From Parvibaculaceae bacterium (GTDB lineage: Bacteria; Pseudomonadota; Alphaproteobacteria; Parvibaculales; Parvibaculaceae), in contig JAPWJY010000008.1 in the NCBI GenBank assembly GCA_028283765.1, positions 682,001 to 746,000 on the forward strand: a stretch of 64,000 bases of DNA, in the 5' to 3' direction. Shown here in pieces: positions 36,893-49,208 of the stretch. The position numbers and the translations under genes are program-made. Every line of letters starts with the position of its first letter. The first letter of the stretch is position 1. Under the pieces are notes generated by a model. That model was given only the letters and a program-made list of their open reading frames with translations, did not search any database and had not been told where the DNA came from.

Positions 36893-37832
36893 ATGGCGGG
36901 CGGCATTGTCGTTTTCGCCTATAGCGAGGTGGGCTATGCCTGCCTCGACGTGCTGCTCGCGCAGGGGCGCCGGGTGCTGGCGCTCTTTACCCATGAGGAT
37001 GGGCCGGGAGAGGAAATCTGGTTCCGCTCCTGTGCGGCGCTTGCCCGCCGCCACGGTGTTCCCGTCTACACTATCGAGGCGAGTGGACCCGGGGATGAAG
37101 TTGAGGGGCTCGTGCGCGCCCTTGCCCCGGATCTGATCCTCTCGGCCTATTACCGGCGCATGATCCCGATGCGCATCCTGTCGCTGGCGCGGCTGGGCGC
37201 CTTCAACATGCATGGCTCGCTGCTGCCGAAATATCGTGGCCGGGCGCCGCTCAACTGGGCGATCCTGAACGGGGAAACCAGGGTCGGCGTGACGCTTCAT
37301 GTCATGACCGGCCGCGCAGATGCTGGCGACATCGTGGATCAGGAAGCCGTCGCGGTCGCGCCGGATGAAACGGCGGGCGAGGTTGCCCCCCGTCTGGCGC
37401 AGGCCGCCGCGAAACTGCTCGCGCGCCGGACAGACGATCTGCTGGCGGGCACGGCCCCACGCACGCCGCAAAATGAGGCCGGAGGCCAGCAAGTTCGGCG
37501 GCCGCACGCCGGCAGACGGGCTAATCGACTGGACCTTGCCCGCGCGCCGGATCGTCAATCTGGTGCGCGCCGTCGCCGCGCCTTTTCCCGGCGCTTTTAC
37601 ATATCTAGATGGGCACAAATTAACTTTGTGGCGAGCCAGAGCCGTTATAGGCAATGGTCTGCCGGGGGAGATTATTTCCACTTCGCCGCCAGTCATTGCT
37701 GCCGGAGAAGGCGCGGTGGAAGTGCTGGCGATGACGCTGGGCGATGGCACTCTCGCGGACATTCCCGGAGAAAATGCCCGCGCCTTGCTGGCGGCTGGAA
37801 AAAGAATGGGGAATGGGGAGAAGGCTGAATGA
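36893..37832 (+). CDS. arnA: UDP-Ara4N formyltransferase (ArnA formyltransferase half), with a +1 frameshift near 37470
   Basis: This enzyme formylates UDP-Ara4N with N10-formyl-THF. The catalytic domain is intact: Asn105, His107 and Asp143 in NMHGSLLPKYRG and TGRADAG match E. coli Asn102/His104/Asp140. After about residue 192 the frame turns into nonsense. The +1 frame continues with SKFGGRTPADGLIDW and the rest of the FMT C-terminal domain, ending at 37832 in an ATGA overlap with arnT. One extra base in the AAAA run near 37470 (or the GG pair just after it) explains this. Corrected length is 312 aa. It could be a sequencing error or a real truncation of the C-terminal domain. Confidence 0.87.
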
Positions 37833-39595: not shown

Positions 39596-40456
39596 ATGAA
39601 ACTCGTTCGATTTGGAGAGCGCGGAGCCGAGCGCCCGGGCCTGATTGATGCAGATGGCCGGGTGCGCGATCTTTCCTCCGTCATCGCGGATATCGAGCCC
39701 TCGACGCTTTCTCCGGAAAGCCTTGCGAGGCTCGGCACGCTCGATGTCTCCGGCCTGCCGGTGGTGGTGCAGGATGTGCGGCTGGGGCCCTGTGTCGGCA
39801 AGATCGGCAAGATCCTCTGCATCGGCCTCAATTACCGCGATCATGCCTCCGAGACGAAGCAGGAACTGCCAAAGGAACCGTTGCTGTTCATGAAGGCGAC
39901 GAGCGCGCTTAACGGCCCGCACGATCATGTGGAAATCCCGCGCACCGGCGTGCAGATGGATTATGAGGGCGAGCTTGCCGTCGTCATCGGCCGTCCCGCC
40001 CGCTATGTGAAGGAGGCCGACGCGCTTTCCTTCGTCGCGGGCTACGCGATCATGGACGATGTATCCGAGCGTCTGTTCCAGAAGCAGCGCGGCGGCCAGA
40101 TGACCAAGGGCAAGAGCGGCGACACATGGGCGCCGCTGGGGCCATGGCTCGTCACCGCCGACGAGGTGCCGGACCCCCAGAAGCTCCTTGTGCGCACCGA
40201 GGTCGATGGAGAGGTCCGCCAGAACGGCACCACCGCCGACATGGTGTTTCCCGTGGCCCATCTGATTTCGTATCTGAGCGAATTTTTCACGCTCTATCCG
40301 GGCGACATCATCTCGACCGGTACGCCGGAAGGCGTGGCGGCGGGCATGAACCCGCCCGGCTGGGTGCAGCCGGGGCAGACCGTGCGCATTTCCATCACGG
40401 GGCCAGACGGCCTCAGCCTCGGTGAGCAACGTTCTCTTTTCGTCAAGGACCAGTAA
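39596..40456 (+). CDS. Fumarylacetoacetate hydrolase (FAH)-family protein
   Basis: This is a 286-aa FAH-superfamily enzyme; members hydrolyse, decarboxylate or hydrate 2-keto-acid-type substrates (ureidoglycolate lyase and 2-keto-4-pentenoate hydratase are relatives). Metal ligands are probably Glu124 and Glu126 in YEGELAVVIG and Asp155 in AIMDDVSER. His83 in LNYRDHASE is a likely catalytic residue. It follows arnT after nine bases and its stop shares a base with the next start (TAATG). It therefore appears to be part of the Ara4N operon, an unexplained association. The substrate is not predictable. Confidence 0.88.
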   Translation: MKLVRFGERGAERPGLIDADGRVRDLSSVIADIEPSTLSPESLARLGTLDVSGLPVVVQDVRLGPCVGKIGKILCIGLNYRDHASETKQELPKEPLLFMKATSALNGPHDHVEIPRTGVQMDYEGELAVVIGRPARYVKEADALSFVAGYAIMDDVSERLFQKQRGGQMTKGKSGDTWAPLGPWLVTADEVPDPQKLLVRTEVDGEVRQNGTTADMVFPVAHLISYLSEFFTLYPGDIISTGTPEGVAAGMNPPGWVQPGQTVRISITGPDGLSLGEQRSLFVKDQ

Positions 40457-41076
40457 TGCCGCGTGCGCTTCCCATCGACATCGAAACGGTCAAGGGCTTC
40501 ATGGATGCCGAAGAGGGCTGGGCCATCCATGACGCGGCGCTGGAAGCCTCGAAGCTCGGACCCTGCCTTGAAATCGGCAGCTATTGCGGCAAGTCCACGG
40601 TCTATTTCGGCGTTGCCTGCCAGGCGAACGGCTCGGTGCTTTATGCGCTCGATCATCATTATGGCTCGGAGGAAAACCAGCGCGGCTGGGAGCATCATGA
40701 TGGCGAGCTTTACGATGATGAAACGGAGCGGCTGAATACCTTTCCCCTGTTCCGGCGCACGCTGCGGCTGGCGGGGCTGGAGGATACGGTCATTCCGCTG
40801 GTCGCGCCCTCCAAAGTCGCGTCCCGGCAATGGGCGACGCCGCTTGCCATGGTGTTCATCGATGGCGGGCACGGCATGGAGCCTGCGCTCGACGATTACC
40901 GGCACTGGGCATCGCGCGTCATCCCCGGCGGCATCCTCGCCATCCATGACGTCTTTCCCGATCCGAAAGACGGCGGCAGGCCGCCTTACGAGATTTACAG
41001 GATGGCGCTGGCATCCGGCCTTTTTGCCGAGATCGGTGCCGTCAAATCGCTGAGGCTACTCCGCCGCCTCGGCTAG
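40456..41076 (+). CDS. Class I SAM-dependent methyltransferase (Methyltransf_24-like)
   Basis: This 206-aa protein has a Rossmann methyltransferase core. The SAM-binding motif LEIGSYCGKST is at about residues 38-48, with a VFIDGGHGMEP motif and IHDVFPDP further on, as in the Methyltransf_24/O-methyltransferase group. No substrate can be assigned. It is the last gene of the operon that starts with the ArnA dehydrogenase, and its 3' end overlaps the convergent toroid gene by 21 bases. Methylation of an Ara4N-related sugar or lipid is speculation. Confidence 0.82.
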   Translation: MPRALPIDIETVKGFMDAEEGWAIHDAALEASKLGPCLEIGSYCGKSTVYFGVACQANGSVLYALDHHYGSEENQRGWEHHDGELYDDETERLNTFPLFRRTLRLAGLEDTVIPLVAPSKVASRQWATPLAMVFIDGGHGMEPALDDYRHWASRVIPGGILAIHDVFPDPKDGGRPPYEIYRMALASGLFAEIGAVKSLRLLRRLG

Positions 41077-42168
41077 GTGGCGCTGGTCGAAAAGGTTGGC
41101 GGCGGCCGTCGTGCCGGTCACGGCGTCGGTGGCGAGGATGATGGCGGCCGCCGTCCATGCGGGCTTTTCCGAAGGCCACGCCACTTCCATCTCGAACTGG
41201 TAGCCCATCCAGTAGGCCCCGTGGGCGTCCCGCCACTGGTGCTGCCAGGAAAGCAGTTGTTCGGCCATGTCGCGTTGACCCGCCGCCAGCAGCGCCATGG
41301 TCAGTTCGGCCGATTCCGCGACCGTTACCCATGGCTGGTCGAGCACGCAGCGGCAGCCTTTGCCGTCGGCAACGAAAATATCCCATTTGGCGGCGATCCG
41401 CTCGCGCGCCGCGCCGCCGCGCACCGCGCCCGCCAGCACCGGATAATACCAGTCCATGGAATAGCGGTCCTTGGGCTCCCATGTCCGGTCGAAGCGATGG
41501 GGCTTGCTGCGCAATGCTTCGCCCAGCCACATGCGGGCATCAAGCCAGCCGGGTCTGGCGTGGCCGAGTTCACGGGCGATCAGGCTGGCGCATTCAAGGC
41601 TCTTGTAAATCGAGGAGCAGCCCGTGATCAGCGCATCGTCTTCCGGCGTATGCGGATCGTTCGCGGCCCAGCGGATTTCGCCATGCGCGCTCTGGTAGGC
41701 CAGAACGAAACCAATGGCGGCCTCGACATGGGGCCAGAGCGTCCGCAGCCAGACCTTGTCGCGGGTGATCAGATAATGATGCCATGCGCCGGTTGCGATA
41801 TAGGAAACGAAATTGGTGTCTCGGATGGGTTTCCCCGCGCCTTCCTCACCGCCGGTATAGGTCTGTTCTTCCTCATCGAAGGGCACCGCGCTGCCAAGCT
41901 GGCCCCACCAGGAGCCATCGTCGAGCTGCGTCTCTATGAGATAGCGGAAGGCCTTGCGCGCAGCCTCGATCTCGCCGAGCACCGTCAGCCCCATGGCGGC
42001 TTCCGTATGGTTCCACGGATCGATGACGCCGCCGTCGTACCAGGGGATCGCGCCATTGTCGCGCTGGAGTTCGAGGATGCGGTTTTTCGCACCGATGAAG
42101 AAATCATCAGGCCAGCGGTCGCCATGCCGGAACATGACGGGCTTTTGCACAGGTGTCTTCCCGGTCAC
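41056..42168 (-). CDS. QW-repeat alpha/alpha-toroid protein (prenyltransferase/cyclase-like), unknown function
   Basis: This is a 370-aa protein with no signal peptide or membrane span. It contains QW-type repeats (QRDNGAIPW near residue 28, QLDDGSWWGQ near 73) and alternating helices. These suggest an alpha/alpha-toroid like prenyltransferases, terpene cyclases or six-hairpin glycosidases. The DXDD motif of squalene-hopene cyclases is not evident, so cyclase activity is doubtful. GTG 42168 overlaps the upstream methyltransferase stop (GTGA). It is the third gene of a coupled trio with a GT4 glycosyltransferase and a methyltransferase. A glycan or glycolipid role is inferred from context only. 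Confidence 0.7.
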   Translation of the reverse strand: MTGKTPVQKPVMFRHGDRWPDDFFIGAKNRILELQRDNGAIPWYDGGVIDPWNHTEAAMGLTVLGEIEAARKAFRYLIETQLDDGSWWGQLGSAVPFDEEEQTYTGGEEGAGKPIRDTNFVSYIATGAWHHYLITRDKVWLRTLWPHVEAAIGFVLAYQSAHGEIRWAANDPHTPEDDALITGCSSIYKSLECASLIARELGHARPGWLDARMWLGEALRSKPHRFDRTWEPKDRYSMDWYYPVLAGAVRGGAARERIAAKWDIFVADGKGCRCVLDQPWVTVAESAELTMALLAAGQRDMAEQLLSWQHQWRDAHGAYWMGYQFEMEVAWPSEKPAWTAAAIILATDAVTGTTAAANLFDQRHLAEAAE

Positions 42169-42881
42169 GCAACGCCTTTCGAGAAATAGAGGACGACGCT
42201 CTTGCCCATCAGGGGGCCTGCCACCGCCTCCAGCGCCTTTGTCAGGCGAGGCCCCTTCATGATGTCCCAGACCAGAAAGCGATGATAGAGCTTCACCAGC
42301 GGATGCTCGTTGTTCTTGACGCCGACGGCGCACTTCAGCCACCAGTAGGGAGAATGCAGACCGTGGGCGAAGTGCTTGTGGAAATAGCTCAGGCCACGGG
42401 CTTCTACCGAGGCGCGCAACTGGGCCTCCTTGAAGATGCGCACATGGCCGCCCGGCTCATTGTGATAATCGTCCGACAGCGCCCAGCAGATTTTTTCCGG
42501 CCACTCGCGCGGCACGCTCACGGCGAAGGTGCCACCGGGCTTCAGCACGCGCTCGATCTCGCGCACGGCCTGAACATAATCGGGGATATGTTCGAGCACT
42601 TCCGAGCAGACGATCTTGTCGAAGGTGGCGTCGGCGAAGGGAAGCTCCAATGCATTGCCGACGGAAAGTGAAAAGGCGCGTCTGGTCTCGGGATCGATGT
42701 CGGGATGAGCTTCGAATCCCTGACGGGTGCGCACCACATCGTCAAAGCCGAGGTCCACGCCGACCACATGGCAGTTGGCGAAATAATACATGGCATGGAC
42801 GTGGCGTCCCTGCCCGCAACCCAGATCGAGAACGCGCTGCCCGTCCTTAAGCCCGAGCACGTTGAGATTGACGGTCTGCAT
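42165..42881 (-). CDS. Class I SAM-dependent methyltransferase (Methyltransf_11-like)
   Basis: This is a 238-aa cytoplasmic methyltransferase. The SAM motif VLDLGCGQGRH lies near residue 18, an acidic loop VVGVDLGFDD follows, then the motif-II region DKIVCSEVLEHI and motif-III LKPGGTFAVSVP. The C-terminal half (GLHSPYWWLKCAVG and beyond) is hydrophobic and aromatic and may bind a lipid or glycolipid substrate. ATG 42881 is preferred; an ATG 30 bases upstream is possible. Its start lies inside the end of the glycosyltransferase gene and its stop overlaps the toroid gene's GTG, so the three genes are translationally coupled. Confidence 0.86.
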   Translation of the reverse strand: MQTVNLNVLGLKDGQRVLDLGCGQGRHVHAMYYFANCHVVGVDLGFDDVVRTRQGFEAHPDIDPETRRAFSLSVGNALELPFADATFDKIVCSEVLEHIPDYVQAVREIERVLKPGGTFAVSVPREWPEKICWALSDDYHNEPGGHVRIFKEAQLRASVEARGLSYFHKHFAHGLHSPYWWLKCAVGVKNNEHPLVKLYHRFLVWDIMKGPRLTKALEAVAGPLMGKSVVLYFSKGVA

Positions 42882-44211
42882 TGGCGATTGCTTCTTTATA
42901 AACGTCGACATAGGCGGCAGCGGTCTGTTGCCATGTCAGGTGGGTGCGGACCCGCTCATAGCCCTTGTGGCCAAGTTCGGCGCGGCGGTCGGGATCATCG
43001 AGCAGGCTGGCAATGGCGCGCGCGAGCGCGCCGGGATTGGAATGGGGCACGATCACGCCGGCGTCGCCGACGACTTCCGGCAATGAGCCGCCAGTCGTGG
43101 CGATCACGGGGCAGCCGCAGGACATGGCCTCACCGGCGGGAAAGCCGAAGCCCTCATAGACCGAGGGCGAGACGGCAATGGTCGCCTGGGCATAGAGTTC
43201 AGTAATGCCTTCGTCGCTCAATCCGCTCACAAACTCGACCTTGTTCATGATGCCGAAGGCGCGCAACTCGTCCGCCGTATTGCCCTCGCGCAGACTGCCG
43301 ATCACCTTGAGGCGCAAGTCCGGGCGCGAATCCAGCAGTTCGGCATAGGCGCGGATCAGGTAGATCAGGCCCTTCAGCGGCACATCGGCGCTGGCGCAGG
43401 CGACGATCAGATTGTTTTCACGCTGGATATGCGGCAGGGGGCGGAACTGCTCGTAATTGATGCCGAGCGAGGCATAGCGCGTCTGTTCCGTGCGCAGGCC
43501 GAATTCGCCCACCACGTCGCGCTGCGTATTCTGTGAGCAGACGATGATCGGCGTTATCTGCCGGGCAACCTTGATCTGCATATTGAGGAAATTGTACCAG
43601 CGCCGTTTCAACAGTTTCAGCGACAGGGTCTTGGCGTGCTGGATGTCGATGCGCCGGTCCATGGTGATGGGATGGTGGATGGTGCCGACGACGGGCAGGC
43701 CCATGTCGCGGACCTTGAGCAGGCCCCAGCTCATGGTCTGGTTGTCGTGGAGCACGTCATACTGGCCGATCTTGTCCTTGAGATAGGCAGCCATCCGCTC
43801 ACCGAAGGTATAGGGCTCGGAAAAGCCGCCCGTATTATGGCTCCACCATTCAAAGAGATCGACCGGTGAGCGGAACATCCAGCGGCGCAGCGCCCGGATC
43901 GGATGGGGATTGGCGTAAAGGTCGAGCGAAGGCAGCTTGATCAGCCCCACGCGGGCGTCGAGCACGGGGTAGGGCGGACCTGAAATCACATCGACCTTGT
44001 GGCCCATATCGCAAAGCGCCTTGGTCACGTGGCGCATATAGACGCCCTGGCCCCCTGTGGTGGGGTTGGAGCGATAGCTCGACATCAGGATGCGCAGGGG
44101 CCGGCTGTTTTCGGGATCGGGGGAAACAATGTGGACCGATGATTTGCCTTCGGTCGTCTCGGCCATCGTGCCAAGCGGTATCTGCGATACCCGCTCTACG
44201 CTCTCCAACAT
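42847..44211 (-). CDS. Family 4 glycosyltransferase
   Basis: This 454-aa GT-B fold glycosyltransferase lacks membrane spans and acts in the cytoplasm. The N-terminal acceptor domain contains a glycine-rich GGQGVYMRHVTKAL near residue 53. The C-terminal GT4 domain has the EX7E-type segment EGFGFPAGEAMSCGCPVIAT and the GGSLPEVVGDAGV nucleotide-sugar region. ATG 44211 follows GAGGA and replaces longer in-frame starts with no homology. It leads the trio GT4-methyltransferase-toroid. Donor sugar and acceptor are unknown; the context suggests a methylated glycoside or glycolipid. Confidence 0.88.
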   Translation of the reverse strand: MLESVERVSQIPLGTMAETTEGKSSVHIVSPDPENSRPLRILMSSYRSNPTTGGQGVYMRHVTKALCDMGHKVDVISGPPYPVLDARVGLIKLPSLDLYANPHPIRALRRWMFRSPVDLFEWWSHNTGGFSEPYTFGERMAAYLKDKIGQYDVLHDNQTMSWGLLKVRDMGLPVVGTIHHPITMDRRIDIQHAKTLSLKLLKRRWYNFLNMQIKVARQITPIIVCSQNTQRDVVGEFGLRTEQTRYASLGINYEQFRPLPHIQRENNLIVACASADVPLKGLIYLIRAYAELLDSRPDLRLKVIGSLREGNTADELRAFGIMNKVEFVSGLSDEGITELYAQATIAVSPSVYEGFGFPAGEAMSCGCPVIATTGGSLPEVVGDAGVIVPHSNPGALARAIASLLDDPDRRAELGHKGYERVRTHLTWQQTAAAYVDVYKEAIANADRQSQRARA

Positions 44212-44513: not shown

Positions 44514-45479
44514 TCAGGCAAACCGGCGCTTCAGCCAGTCCACGATCAGGGCATTGAGCGCCTCGGGCTGTTCGGCCTGGGTCCAGTGGCCGCAGTCGGG
44601 GATAATGTGTTTTTCGAGGTCGGCGATATAGTTTTCCATGCCGTTGGTGGCCTCGGGACGCAGCACGATGTCGTCGGCAGCCGAGATCATCAGGCAGGGC
44701 ACGCCGATTTTCATCGGCAGATCGGCGCTTCTCTCCCAGTTGCGGGTGAAGTTGCGGTACCAGCCGATGCCGCCTTCGTAGCCGGTCCTGGTAAAGGCGG
44801 CGGTATAATAAGCCAGTTCCTCCTGGTTCAGCAGCTGGGTGCCGCCCCAGCTCTCTTCGGGGGCCTGGAAGCCGTTCAGGAAGGCGAAGTTCTTCATCTC
44901 GGCGGGCAGGGCGTCGTACTGGGCAAGCGTCATGCCGGACTTGCGGTACCAGAAGCGCATGGAACGCTCGATGTCAGCATCCAGCAGCTTTTCCGCCTCG
45001 CCATATTTCTGGAAGAAGACGATATACATGTCCTCGCCATAGAGATGGCGCATCCCGGCAATGGGGTCGAAGTTGCCGCGCGGCATATAGGGGGTGTTGA
45101 CGCCGATGACGCCCGCCACACGGTCCGGATGCCGCAGCGCCATCTGCCAGACCACGATGCCGCCCCAGTCATGGCCGCAGAAAATCGCCTTGTCGATGCC
45201 GAGTGCATCGAGCATGCCCGCCAGATCGTCCGTCAGATGCTCCATGTCATAGAGCGGGATATTTTCCTGCCCTTTGGGCCCGCCGGTATTGCCATAGCCG
45301 CGCTGGTCCGGCGCGACGGCATGGAAGCCCGCCGCCGCGACGGCCGGGATCTGATGGCGCCATGAATAGGCGAGTTCGGGAAAGCCGTGGCAGAACACCA
45401 CGGGCGTTCCCTGCCCCTGTTCATAGACGGCCATGTTGAGGCCATTGGTCTTGACATAGCGTGGTTCAGGAAATGACAT
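44514..45479 (-). CDS. Alpha/beta-hydrolase, epoxide hydrolase type
   Basis: This 321-aa hydrolase has a complete epoxide hydrolase set. The oxyanion motif is HGFPE (31-35) and the nucleophile is Asp104 in GHDWGG. Lid tyrosines aligned with those of mammalian soluble epoxide hydrolase are Tyr152 in MYIVFFQ and Tyr241 in GWYRN. A charge-relay Asp lies near 270 and His298 in CGHW. An Asp rather than Ser nucleophile excludes an ordinary esterase. ATG 45479 is chosen because upstream sequence is not conserved. It lies 49 bases behind an FAD monooxygenase gene and ends at a terminator, suggesting a two-gene epoxidation/hydrolysis unit. Confidence 0.88.
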   Translation of the reverse strand: MSFPEPRYVKTNGLNMAVYEQGQGTPVVFCHGFPELAYSWRHQIPAVAAAGFHAVAPDQRGYGNTGGPKGQENIPLYDMEHLTDDLAGMLDALGIDKAIFCGHDWGGIVVWQMALRHPDRVAGVIGVNTPYMPRGNFDPIAGMRHLYGEDMYIVFFQKYGEAEKLLDADIERSMRFWYRKSGMTLAQYDALPAEMKNFAFLNGFQAPEESWGGTQLLNQEELAYYTAAFTRTGYEGGIGWYRNFTRNWERSADLPMKIGVPCLMISAADDIVLRPEATNGMENYIADLEKHIIPDCGHWTQAEQPEALNALIVDWLKRRFA

Positions 45480-45528
45480 CCGAGCGCTCCCGGTTACATG
45501 TTTTGTTTTTGATGATAGCACGATCCGG

Positions 45529-47034
45529 TCAGGCGGCATTGAGCCGCTGGAGATCGGCGTTGACGGAGAGTTCGAGCGTGGCGAAAAGCCGGTCGCGCTC
45601 GGGACCGATGTTTGCGGGATAATATTTCGCATTGAGCCATTTGCCCCGCGCCCAGTACATCAGCACCCGGGCGAAATTTGCCGGTTCCTTCAGCCATGCG
45701 TTGGGCGCTTCCATCATGTGGAAGGCGGCCATGACCCGGCGCAGCATGTTCACGTCCGCGCGGGTCGCGATCACGATGCCATCCTCGATGAAGCTCTTGA
45801 GGAGGCGGGCCTTCAGGCGGGGCCTGTAATCGGGGTCGAGGGTATTGCGGGCTCTTTTGATGGCGGTTTGGTCCTGGCTGACCATGCTGTCGTAGAAAGG
45901 CCGAAGTTCACGGGCCACGCTTTCATGATAAAGGCGCGCCCGGGCGGCGGGATCGGAACTTGCGGTCAGCGCCTCGCCGAGCAGATGGGCTGAAATGGCG
46001 GCAAATGAACAGCCCCGGCCATAGAGCGGATTGGTGCGGATGACGCAATCTCCGACCGGGAAATAGTTCAGGACCTTCGGCTGGCCGTCCTTGACCATGT
46101 GCCGCCAGCGGCTGATGAGTTCTCCCATGCCGAACACGCGGCTGACGGGTTCGGAGCGGTCGGGATCGACCCACGGGGCCATGCCCGGCATGCTCAGGCA
46201 TATCCTGTCGAAAACCGCCGGGTCGACGGCGGCCTTGCGCAGTTCCATCTCGATTTCCGGGATGGCGAGGGTCACCGAGAAGCGGCGGTTGTCCGCCGGG
46301 AAGATACCGAACTTGATGTAGCCGAGATCGCCGCTCGTGGGGGAACTGCCGCGATCAGGCTCGTTCTGGCCGTCGCGCAGTCTGTAGTGGCGGGTGAAAT
46401 AGAGGATGCCGGTGGGCTCGGATTCCTCCTCGATCTCCAGCCCGGCCTCCTTCAGCCAGTCCATGGCGGGGGCGTTCTTGCCGCTGGCATCGACGATGAA
46501 GTCCGGCCGCCATTCCTGTTTCGTCCCGTCGGCAAGGTCGCCGCTCAGGCCTGTGACGGTGATCTGCCCCGCGCCGTTGCGGCGGGTCTCGAGGCTGCGC
46601 ACCTTGACGCCGGGCTCGATCCGGACATGGGGCAGGCGCTCGACGAAGCGGCGCATGATCAGCTCAAGCGTGGTCCGGCGGCTGGTCAGGATATTGAGAT
46701 TGTCGTCGCTGGGCCGGGGGGTGAAGCCGGCCCGGCTGACCTCGGGGATCATGTTCTCGAAAGGCAGGATGCGGCAGCCCGCAGACAGAAGATCGTCCAG
46801 CAGTTCCGGGTATTTGTCGCGGATCAGCACATAGAGGCGGGCGAGGAAAGCATGGCTGTGGCGGACATGGCCCACGCCCGAGTGCTGCCAGTTTTCAAAC
46901 ACGTCGTCGGGCGAAGTGTCTGGTGGCGGCGGGTCCCGGTCGAGCACCGTTACGTCGAACCCGGCATGACCGAGCGCCATGGCGGACATGAGGCCGCCGA
47001 TACCCGCACCTATGATGATCGCTTTTTCAGCCAT
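45529..47034 (-). CDS. FAD-dependent monooxygenase-like protein
   Basis: This 501-aa flavoprotein has the N-terminal FAD motif IIIGAGIGGL (residues 6-15). A second FAD motif, FPVGDCVIRTNPLYGRGCSFA, lies near residue 325, as in PHBH-type monooxygenases, squalene epoxidases and halogenase relatives. No membrane span or signal is seen. The ATG follows AGGAGCAGGAAG. The flavin halogenase signature WxWxIP is not visible, so halogenation is unlikely. Its only operon partner is the epoxide hydrolase, which would fit an epoxidising oxygenase (inference). The substrate is unknown. Confidence 0.78.
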   Translation of the reverse strand: MAEKAIIIGAGIGGLMSAMALGHAGFDVTVLDRDPPPPDTSPDDVFENWQHSGVGHVRHSHAFLARLYVLIRDKYPELLDDLLSAGCRILPFENMIPEVSRAGFTPRPSDDNLNILTSRRTTLELIMRRFVERLPHVRIEPGVKVRSLETRRNGAGQITVTGLSGDLADGTKQEWRPDFIVDASGKNAPAMDWLKEAGLEIEEESEPTGILYFTRHYRLRDGQNEPDRGSSPTSGDLGYIKFGIFPADNRRFSVTLAIPEIEMELRKAAVDPAVFDRICLSMPGMAPWVDPDRSEPVSRVFGMGELISRWRHMVKDGQPKVLNYFPVGDCVIRTNPLYGRGCSFAAISAHLLGEALTASSDPAARARLYHESVARELRPFYDSMVSQDQTAIKRARNTLDPDYRPRLKARLLKSFIEDGIVIATRADVNMLRRVMAAFHMMEAPNAWLKEPANFARVLMYWARGKWLNAKYYPANIGPERDRLFATLELSVNADLQRLNAA

Positions 47035-47152: not shown

Positions 47153-47530
47153 TCAGGGGGAGGGTGGCAGGCGCAGGGCGCTGAGCGCAATCAGCGCCCA
47201 TCCGGCCAGAAAGGCGACGCCGCCGAGCGGGGTCGCCAGCACCAGAGCCCGGCTGCCCGTAATCCCCAGAAAATAGAGCGAGCCGGAAAAAAGCACGATA
47301 CCAAGCAAGAAGGCCCATCCGGCGCTTTGCGCAAGGCCGGAACTCGTCTGGGATGTAAGCCAGGCGACGATGACCAGCGCCAGCGCGTGGTACATATGAT
47401 AACGGGCGCCGGTTTCGAAGATCGCAAGATCCGTATCCGGCACCTTGCCGCTCAGGCCATGGGCTGCGAATGCCCCCAGCGCCACGGCCAGAAAACCGTT
47501 GGCAGCCGCGATAAAAAGCCAGAATCGCAT
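47153..47530 (-). CDS. DUF423 family membrane protein
   Basis: This is a 125-aa protein with four hydrophobic helices. The DUF423 (YgdD-like) signature ALGAFAAHGL lies near residues 17-26, followed by ETGARYHMYHALAL and a GSLYFLGITG motif. The function of the family is unknown. It lies upstream of the FAD gene on the same strand with a 118-bp gap, and diverges from the phosphohexomutase gene across 178 bp, so it may be transcribed alone. Confidence 0.9.
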   Translation of the reverse strand: MRFWLFIAAANGFLAVALGAFAAHGLSGKVPDTDLAIFETGARYHMYHALALVIVAWLTSQTSSGLAQSAGWAFLLGIVLFSGSLYFLGITGSRALVLATPLGGVAFLAGWALIALSALRLPPSP

Positions 47531-47708
47531 GGGCTCTCTCCTGTCCTGTCGAATATTGCCGTTCCCTGTGGCAAGCTTCGCGCCTCTGCGCGAAAAAGGA
47601 GACGCTCAAAAGACGAGACGGCCTTTAAAGCACCACCAAGCCCGCCTACCATCCGACGATTCGCACTTTAATCAATCTTCGCGTCCCGGTTCCCTCAAGG
47701 AGAAGTTC

Positions 47709-49208
47709 ATGGCTGTGAAGCCCCGCACCGACCTCAAGCCCAATACATTCGAGTTTGAGAACGAACCCCTCGTGTCGCCCTCCGGCTTCAGGGAATATGA
47801 TGCGCGCTGGCTGTTTCCCGACCAGATCAATCTGGTCGGCGTGCGCGATCTCGGGCTGGGGCTGGGCACGCTCATCCATGAGCTTGGCGTGCGTCCCGCC
47901 ATTTCCGTCGGCCATGATTTCCGCTCCTATTCGCTCTCCATCAAGAACGCGCTGATCGTCGGCCTGATGGCGGCGGGCTGCGAGGTTTATGACATCGGCC
48001 TTGCCCTCTCCCCGGTCGCCTATTTCTCGCAGTTCGCGCTCGATGTGCCCTGCGTCGCCATGGTGACGGCGAGCCACAATGAAAACGGCTGGACCGGCGT
48101 GAAGATGGGTGCCGAGCGCCCGCTCACCTTCGGGCCGGAACTGATGACGCGACTGAAGGACATCGTGCTGGCGGGCGCGGGCAAGGAGCGGGCGGGCGGG
48201 CGCTATCATGCGGTCGACGGCATGGCGCGCACCTATATCGACGATCTCACCGGCAAGCTGAAGCTCAGGCATCCCCTCAAGGTGGTGGCGGCCTGCGGCA
48301 ACGGCACGGCGGGCGCCTTCGCCCCGAAGGTGCTGGAAGGCATCGGCGCCACCGTGATCCCGCTCGATTGCGAGCTGGACTATACCTTCCCGCGCTACAA
48401 TCCGAACCCGGAAGACATGGAGATGCTGCACGCGCTCGCCCATCAGGTGCGCGAGAGCGGGGCTGACGTCGGCCTCGGCTTCGATGGCGATGGCGACCGC
48501 TGCGGCGTGGTCGATAATGAGGGCGAGGAAATCTTCGCCGACAAGGTGGGGGTGATGCTTGCCCGCGACCTCTCGGCGCGCTTTCCCGATGCGCAGTTCG
48601 TGGTGGACGTGAAGTCGACCGGGCTCTATCTCACCGATCCTGTGCTGATCGCCAATGGCGCGAAGACGGATTACTGGAAGACCGGCCATTCCTATATCAA
48701 GCGCCGCTCGCATGAGCTTGGCGCGCTCGTTGGTTTCGAGAAATCCGGGCATTATTTTTTCAACGCGCCGCTCGGCCGCGGCTATGACGACGGCCTGGTG
48801 TCGGCGCTCGCCGTCTGCGAGATGCTCGACCGCAATCCCGGCAAGAAGATGTCGGACCTGCGCCGCGATCTCCAGCAGACATGGGGCTCGCCGACCATGT
48901 CGCCCTACTGCGCCGACGAGGCCAAATATGATGTCGTCGACCGCATGGTCGCCTATTTCGAGGACCAGAAGGCGAAGGGCGGCAAGCTGATCGGCCAGAA
49001 TATCCGCGATCTGGTCACCGTGAACGGCGTGCGCGTCGTGCTTGAAGACGGGACGTGGGGGCTTGTCCGGGCGTCCTCGAACAAGCCCGGCCTCGTCGTC
49101 GTGGTCGAAAGCCCGACGTCCGAGGCCAATATGCGGGGCATCTTCAAGGAGATCGATACGCTGCTCTCGGCTCAGCCGGAGGTGGGCGAATACGACCAGA
49201 AGATATAG
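47709..49208 (+). CDS. Phosphomannomutase/phosphoglucomutase
   Basis: This enzyme interconverts hexose 1- and 6-phosphates for sugar-nucleotide and exopolysaccharide synthesis. The 499-aa alpha-D-phosphohexomutase has the phosphoserine loop TASHNENGWTG (Ser122), the Mg-binding DGDGDR (Asp259/261/263) and the sugar-binding GFEKSGHYFF loop. The C-terminal phosphate-binding RASSNKPGL follows. ATG 47709 follows AAGGAG; the longer upstream frame is not conserved. Whether glucose or mannose is preferred cannot be decided (AlgC/ManB-like bifunctional forms exist). It ends four bases from a convergent gene. Confidence 0.94.
   Translation: MAVKPRTDLKPNTFEFENEPLVSPSGFREYDARWLFPDQINLVGVRDLGLGLGTLIHELGVRPAISVGHDFRSYSLSIKNALIVGLMAAGCEVYDIGLALSPVAYFSQFALDVPCVAMVTASHNENGWTGVKMGAERPLTFGPELMTRLKDIVLAGAGKERAGGRYHAVDGMARTYIDDLTGKLKLRHPLKVVAACGNGTAGAFAPKVLEGIGATVIPLDCELDYTFPRYNPNPEDMEMLHALAHQVRESGADVGLGFDGDGDRCGVVDNEGEEIFADKVGVMLARDLSARFPDAQFVVDVKSTGLYLTDPVLIANGAKTDYWKTGHSYIKRRSHELGALVGFEKSGHYFFNAPLGRGYDDGLVSALAVCEMLDRNPGKKMSDLRRDLQQTWGSPTMSPYCADEAKYDVVDRMVAYFEDQKAKGGKLIGQNIRDLVTVNGVRVVLEDGTWGLVRASSNKPGLVVVVESPTSEANMRGIFKEIDTLLSAQPEVGEYDQKI

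Follow-up and report, generated by a model that had tools for sequence, protein, structure and literature searches.

A probable methylmannose polysaccharide gene cluster in an alphaproteobacterium of the Parvibaculaceae

Introduction

What is made by a GT4 glycosyltransferase, a methyltransferase and a toroid protein whose genes overlap on one strand of a Parvibaculaceae genome? The question is raised by a 64,000-nucleotide stretch of contig JAPWJY010000008.1 (the window), in which an earlier note had seen the three genes as the best candidate for an undescribed pathway, one whose product could be a methylated glycoside with a terpenoid or lipid as acceptor. Here we argue that the locus is very probably a complete methylmannose polysaccharide (MMP) cluster, a reading that draws on homology, fold, catalytic residues, gene order, co-occurrence and donor supply. 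Since the 1970s MMP has been explained as a partner of mycobacterial FAS-I, and the producers described for it are nontuberculous mycobacteria and Streptomyces.

Results

The three minus-strand frames and their overlaps were as previously described: the GT4 frame (42847-44211) shares 35 bases (42847-42881) with the methyltransferase frame (42165-42881), which in turn shares GTGA (42165-42168) with the toroid frame (41056-42168). A fourth gene had been overlooked, a plus-strand methyltransferase (40456-41076) that converges on the toroid gene so that the two 3' ends share 21 bases (41056-41076). Because this gene belongs to the unit, the cluster has four genes and not three, all in one locus (40456-44211) in the same order as in M. 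hassiacum. The features are as follows:

40456..41076, plus strand: meT1-like 1-O-methyltransferase (phmmer to 6g7d/6g80/6h40)
41056..42168, minus strand: mmpH-like (alpha/alpha)6-barrel endo-alpha-(1->4)-mannosidase, the toroid (phmmer to 7qsj; AlphaFold model)
42165..42881, minus strand: pMeT3-like SAM methyltransferase, presumed mannan 3-O-methyltransferase (Methyltransf_11/31; slot between manT and mmpH)
42847..44211, minus strand: manT-like GT4 alpha-(1->4)-mannosyltransferase (phmmer to 7qsg; start at 44211, or GTG/ATG at 44166)
47445..49208, plus strand: PGM/PMM-family phosphohexomutase (PF02878/79/80/00408)

The toroid frame stays open upstream to 42342, but conservation of the protein begins near 42168. 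Compared with a congener (G001), changes fell predominantly at third codon positions in both ManT (14/8/90 by codon position) and MmpH (9/6/69). This bias, together with homologues in the same arrangement across classes, indicates that the manT, MeT3 and mmpH frames are real genes. No transmembrane segment or signal peptide was evident in the four products by crude hydropathy; they look cytosolic, and the polymer would therefore be intracellular.

Three of the four products found their best matches in the three solved MMP enzyme structures, and nothing else came nearly as close. The GT4 protein matched M. hassiacum ManT (7qsg) over residues 38-444 with an E value of 5.5e-96 (phmmer, PDB), the second-best match reaching only 6.6e-22. 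It keeps Gly15, His142, Lys240, Glu313, Gly314, Phe315 and Glu321, among which His142, Lys240, Glu313 and Glu321 are invariant in 77 full-length ManT homologues, the window protein included. The convergent methyltransferase matched MeT1 (6g7d/6g80/6h40) at 1.9e-57 over residues 10-204, nearly the whole protein, with no other significant PDB match by phmmer; about 30 MeT1 residues are invariant in 114 sequences, that of M. hassiacum included. For the middle methyltransferase the assignment is presumptive: it matches the Pfam families Methyltransf_11/31, has 50% identity to its positional counterpart in the actinobacterium Nonomuraea and sits between manT and mmpH in all loci compared. Position and family fit the mycobacterial pMeT3, and we presume a 3-O-methyltransferase role. 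To our knowledge, 3-O-methylation by pMeT3 is putative in the literature, mycobacteria included, and proven nowhere.

The toroid matched no Pfam family at cut-off and received no useful name from Pfam or NCBIfam, only weak sub-threshold glycosidase-like matches, because neither collection has an MmpH model. Under family-only annotation it would have stayed nameless. Against M. hassiacum MmpH (7qsj) it matched over the full protein length (phmmer, E 1.2e-79). Its AlphaFold model (pLDDT 93.7) aligned with 7qsj at a Foldseek E of 3.8e-35 and a VIA-align Z of 49.0 (rmsd 2.2 Å, 337 aligned), and no other hydrolase came close. The (alpha/alpha)6 fold is common among GH15/GH63/GH125-type glycosidases, and the base glutamate is common to GH15 and GH125 (PMC9883506), but these reached Z of at most 34, against 49 for MmpH. 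The equivalents of Asp47, Trp49, Glu262, Glu265 and Trp315 are D50, W52, E285, E288 and W338 in the window protein, and both the catalytic base Glu262 (E285) and the candidate acid Asp47 (D50) are invariant in 139 MmpH sequences. The identity of the acid was left ambiguous by published structural work on MmpH, and our comparison of Asp47 with Asp50 bears on this. Activity is almost abolished in an Asp50 to Ala variant of the mycobacterial enzyme, yet position 50 is Asn in 67/67 alphaproteobacterial copies (N53 in the window) and in Nonomuraea; M. hassiacum, haloarchaea and most gammaproteobacteria have Asp there. Since a same-order actinobacterial cluster also has Asn, we did not take Asp50 as defining. 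The invariance of Asp47 and the natural occurrence of Asn50 across a clade make Asp47 the likely catalytic acid.

The earlier proposal that the genes act as one unit was borne out by their distribution. ManT, MeT3 and MmpH in one direction with MeT1 convergent is the order in 104 of 105 distinct four-gene loci, from alphaproteobacteria, gammaproteobacteria and Nonomuraea, and the exact 4-base overlap of MeT3 and MmpH recurs in 59 of the 105. Among 659 genomes tested, those bearing MmpH were exactly those bearing MeT1 (34/385 alphaproteobacteria, 7/274 gammaproteobacteria; Fisher p 1.6e-49 and 4.7e-14, values that overstate independence because the sampled genomes are related). The seven gammaproteobacterial genomes checked that had no detected adjacent meT1 hit all carry the gene, in one case (L115) beside the cluster. 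In the host family, mmpH is present in 35/37 genomes. No fifth gene that could be a primer or partner is conserved across phyla; the next neighbour family occurs in 19/84 loci and is clade-specific. In a quick, midpoint-rooted tree with just two actinobacterial sequences, the alphaproteobacterial MmpH proteins group together in a single clade of 34 rows (SH-aLRT 100), which includes one unclassified Pseudomonadota MAG. Recent horizontal transfer from actinobacteria was unsupported, as actinobacterial MmpH falls outside this clade.

Donor supply is consistent with the assignment. The host is equipped for GDP-mannose synthesis, with a GDP-mannose pyrophosphorylase encoded elsewhere in the genome (G000:C3:491703-493100; GMP_PMI, TIGR01479, E 9.9e-204), and the phosphohexomutase at 47445..49208 (+) is a possible source of mannose-1-phosphate. 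No FAS-I marker was found in the host genome, which leaves MMP without its textbook partner in this host.

With the M. hassiacum enzymes, sequence identity reaches only about 40%, which leaves room for differences in polymer length, decoration and even the sugar. It is conceivable, though unlikely, that the same four enzymes serve a sister pathway to another alpha-(1->4) methylated hexan, with a different donor sugar or methylation site. In favour of this, most gammaproteobacterial homologues of ManT have Thr or His at position 293, where the mycobacterial protein has an Asp that contacts guanine, and haloarchaea carry the ManT/MeT3/MmpH trio without MeT1, with His at 101 and Arg at 102 of MmpH. 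The window proteins, however, retain Leu291 and Asp293 of ManT and all six MmpH subsite residues (Trp49, Asn101, Phe102, Thr163, Met215, Tyr219), and the host genome makes GDP-mannose.

Considerably less probable is an envelope role, in which the product would be a methylated mannan for lipopolysaccharide. There is a precedent in the alpha-(1->2) 3-O-methylmannan O-antigen of the alphaproteobacterium Oligotropha carboxidovorans; ArnC/ArnT-like genes lie among the window neighbours, and in Halieaceae the cluster adjoins genes that by eye look like rfb and waaA. Against this, exporter (Wzm/Wzt, Wzx/Wzy), polymerase and ligase genes are not conserved across 84 loci, neither Wzm/Wzt nor Wzx/Wzy was found among the annotated window neighbours, and an MMP-type endo-hydrolase with a reducing-end 1-O-methyl cap would prevent attachment to a lipid carrier.

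A terpenoid or lipid-glycoside product, with the toroid as a QW-repeat cyclase or prenyltransferase, we consider hardly credible and dropped after the MmpH match: the local match to squalene-hopene cyclase (E 4.5e-05) covers about 40 residues, whereas that to 7qsj (E 1e-79) spans the whole protein, in structure the cyclases are remote (Foldseek about 1e-8, versus 1e-35), no cyclase or prenyltransferase family was matched in Pfam or NCBIfam, the lack of a DXDD motif was upheld, and the glycosidase catalytic residues are invariant. Of the folds once considered for the toroid, the six-hairpin glycosidase stood.

Discussion

Together, the enzyme matches, conserved residues, conserved order and co-occurrence place the locus in the known MMP pathway. 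The expectation of an undescribed pathway did not survive, as the toroid matches the characterized MmpH (PMC9883506), although the role of that enzyme is related to what had been guessed: the products would act together on a methylated glycan, with no terpenoid or lipid acceptor indicated.

The most plausible reading is that the locus directs synthesis of an intracellular alpha-(1->4) 3-O-methylmannan through MmpH-primed recycling. ManT would transfer mannose from GDP-mannose in alpha-(1->4) linkage onto short oligomannosides, and the middle methyltransferase may 3-O-methylate the newly added residues. MmpH would cut mature chains internally, yielding oligomers that prime new chains, and MeT1 would add a 1-O-methyl cap to free reducing ends. 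The activities of ManT, MmpH and MeT1 have been demonstrated in mycobacteria (PMC9883506); from the genes, we infer that the host produces the polymer. Its most likely job would be to sequester long acyl chains or to help the cell grow at low temperature, in this host without FAS-I.

The closest known system is the nontuberculous mycobacterial cluster (meT1, mmpH, pmeT3, manT; MHAS_04402-04405), which has the same genes, order, folds and catalytic residues. The locus described here differs in its Gram-negative, alphaproteobacterial host, the undetected FAS-I, the roughly 40% identity and the clade-wide Asn50 of alphaproteobacterial MmpH. Streptomyces griseus, another non-mycobacterial producer, makes an acetylated MMP (AMMP; PMC9883506), but it is an actinobacterium, and the cluster here has no conserved acetyltransferase gene beside it. 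The mycobacterial 6-O-methylglucose lipopolysaccharide (MGLP; Rv3030-Rv3032 and others) is likewise a polymethylated polysaccharide of alpha-(1->4) linkage, located inside the cell and made with a GT4 enzyme and a methyltransferase. Unlike MMP, it is glucose-based; its GH57 branching-enzyme domain (PF09210) was not found in the host genome, and the window GT4 is closer by far to ManT than to any other solved GT4.

A literature search for methylmannose together with Proteobacteria returned, by titles and abstracts, other topics only. Relative to the searchable literature the hosts of the cluster appear to be new, the polymer being unreported in many marine carriers of the same-order cluster. 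We think it reasonably likely that MMP extends well beyond the actinobacteria: in this view it is an intracellular polymer widespread among marine alpha- and gammaproteobacteria (OCS116 and SAR86 included) and passed on mainly by vertical descent, haloarchaea have a version that lacks MeT1, and the conserved job of the polymer does not depend on FAS-I. The presence of the four-gene MMP unit in bacteria that give no hint of FAS-I, many of them numerous in the sea, opens the function of the polymer to tests in simple laboratory hosts and argues for a more general role of MMP, in acyl-chain binding or cold adaptation.

A predicted methylmannose polysaccharide hydrolase and its partner genes

The toroid protein of the window had a single full-length match among solved structures, 7qsj (E 1.2e-79), the methylmannose polysaccharide (MMP) hydrolase MmpH of Mycolicibacterium hassiacum. 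Its predicted structure (47 sequences; pLDDT 93.7, pTM 0.93) aligned with 7qsj at Z 49.0 and rmsd 2.2 over 337 residues, other fold relatives reaching Z 34 or lower. The QW-like motifs had hinted at a cyclase, a reading that we rejected: Foldseek gave 3.8e-35 for 7qsj and about 1e-8 for the runners-up, cyclases included, and the motifs are incidental. Sequence and model together thus identify the toroid as MmpH. The earlier note described three overlapping minus-strand genes, which holds for the window at both junctions, but it omitted a fourth, convergent gene that matches 6g7d/6g80/6h40 (E 1.9e-57), the M. hassiacum 1-O-methyltransferase MeT1 (PDB title: methyltransferase domain protein).

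Genes of the predicted MMP cluster in the window
42847-44211, minus strand, ManT (GT4 glycosyltransferase)
42165-42881, minus strand, putative MeT3 (methyltransferase)
41056-42168, minus strand, MmpH (toroid)
40456-41076, plus strand, MeT1-like methyltransferase, convergent

Among solved structures, the GT4 protein matched ManT (7qsg; PMC9883506) at E 5.5e-96, against 6.6e-22 for the second-best GT4. The family search assigned the middle gene only to generic methyltransferases; its location is that of pMeT3, and the window's gene order is identical to that of the M. hassiacum cluster, manT (MHAS_04402), pmeT3, mmpH and meT1 (04405) (PMC9883506). Relative to a congener, third codon positions take most of the substitutions in all genes, indicating that the genes are functional and kept by purifying selection.

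Conserved residues

Residues were numbered as in PMC9883506, and 11 of 11 named MmpH positions agreed with the 7qsj sequence. Asp47, Trp49, Met215, Tyr219, Glu262 and Glu265 were invariant across 139 MmpH sequences. The window has Asn at position 50, as do all 67 alphaproteobacterial copies and Nonomuraea, whereas M. hassiacum, haloarchaea and 51 of 53 gammaproteobacteria have Asp. The structural paper left the catalytic acid undecided between Asp47 and Asp50 (PMC9883506); because Asp47 is invariant and Asn occurs naturally at position 50, the alignment favours Asp47. In ManT (77 sequences), His142, Lys240, Glu313, Gly314, Phe315 and Glu321 were conserved, as was Gly15 save in one sequence; the guanine-contact Asp293 is present in the window but absent from most gammaproteobacteria.

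Gene order and co-occurrence

ManT, MeT3 and MmpH in one direction, with MeT1 facing them, was the arrangement in 104 of 105 distinct loci holding all four genes, drawn from alphaproteobacteria, gammaproteobacteria and the actinobacterium Nonomuraea. MmpH and MeT1 occurred in identical sets of genomes, 34 in a draw of 385 alphaproteobacteria and 7 of 274 gammaproteobacteria. Where meT1 was not detected beside the gammaproteobacterial trio, all seven genomes checked hold it, and at one locus (L115) it adjoins the trio. No fifth gene was common across phyla among the neighbours at 84 loci (commonest other family, 19/84). A self-priming recycling pathway would be expected to show this pattern, with no additional primer enzyme accompanying the four genes.

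Several neighbours were observed. An epoxide-hydrolase-family alpha/beta hydrolase (44514-45632, minus strand; best solved match EphA, 5cw2, E 9.3e-76) lies upstream of ManT in the same direction; of 19 alphaproteobacterial loci that were named or fetched and had flanking sequence, 12 show an orthologue in this place, whereas it was absent there in the loci compared from other phyla. In Halieaceae and relatives (L086-L143), the cluster often lies between rfbABCD-like (dTDP-rhamnose) and waaA/tolC-like genes, named by eye; this placement may be functional or may simply be local gene order. Elsewhere in the window, an ArnA-like formyltransferase (36893-37832, plus strand) between ArnC-like and ArnT-like genes seems split, with the formyltransferase N-terminal domain in ORF 36893-37828 and the continuation in another frame (ORF 37320-37832); this may be a pseudogene, a sequencing error or a programmed shift.

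Distribution and ancestry

We place the window genome (3.24 Mb in 9 contigs) in the Parvibaculum family, since a Parvibaculum record (L070) shares its MmpH subclade and the MmpH positions of G022, a genome of the window's family, and G422, the genome of L070, are near-identical (C10:267685 and C10:267700). MmpH was found in 35 of 37 genomes of this family, the other two being incomplete assemblies (88% and 74%). With each species represented by a single genome, a scan returned at least 585 coding places, the best 80 of which were mostly from marine gammaproteobacteria (Halieaceae, Luminiphilus, Spongiibacteraceae, Cellvibrionaceae, SAR86), alphaproteobacteria (OCS116, Robiginitomaculum MAGs), SAR324 and Natrinema. 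Alphaproteobacterial MmpH sequences formed one supported clade, which argues that the window cluster is long-standing in the class and not a recent import. The cluster was also seen in Nonomuraea on an 11.85 Mb PLSDB "plasmid" that, judging by its size, is presumably the chromosome (L150, NZ_LT559118.1).

Strong MmpH matches occurred in 11 of 145 haloarchaea. ManT and MeT3 accompany MmpH in Natrinema, where a search for MeT1 found none. Haloarchaeal loci L135 and L156-L166 carry MmpH/MeT3 without MeT1, and their MmpH has His and Arg at positions 101 and 102; the haloarchaeal form possibly has a different reducing end or a different sugar.

Proposed pathway and role

The MMP pathway and its enzymes are already known, and the window cluster adds a new member. 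A full-text search of a partial literature set found no report of MMP in Proteobacteria, MMP and its genes being described there only from Actinobacteria; given this partial coverage, we claim no priority for a proteobacterial cluster. The window cluster most likely follows the mechanism published for mycobacteria: MmpH would cut the mature polymer, ManT would lengthen the released oligomers from GDP-mannose, a 3-O-methyltransferase would mature the extended oligomers, and MeT1 would cap newly made reducing ends. The window genome encodes a GDP-mannose pyrophosphorylase, a PGM/PMM-family enzyme gene lies 3 kb past ManT, and all four cluster proteins look cytosolic by hydropathy.

FAS-I is the classical partner of MMP, and its model PF08354 had no match in the window genome while detecting the C. 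glutamicum control. The GH57 branching-enzyme domain tied to the related 6-O-methylglucose lipopolysaccharide pathway was also searched for there and was absent. With neither present, we infer the role of MMP in this organism from precedent. Polymethylated polysaccharides bind long acyl chains in vitro (PMC4555173), and an M. smegmatis mmpH mutant suggests a role in cold adaptation (PMC9883506); in the window's organism, MMP may likewise serve in long-acyl-chain binding or cold adaptation.
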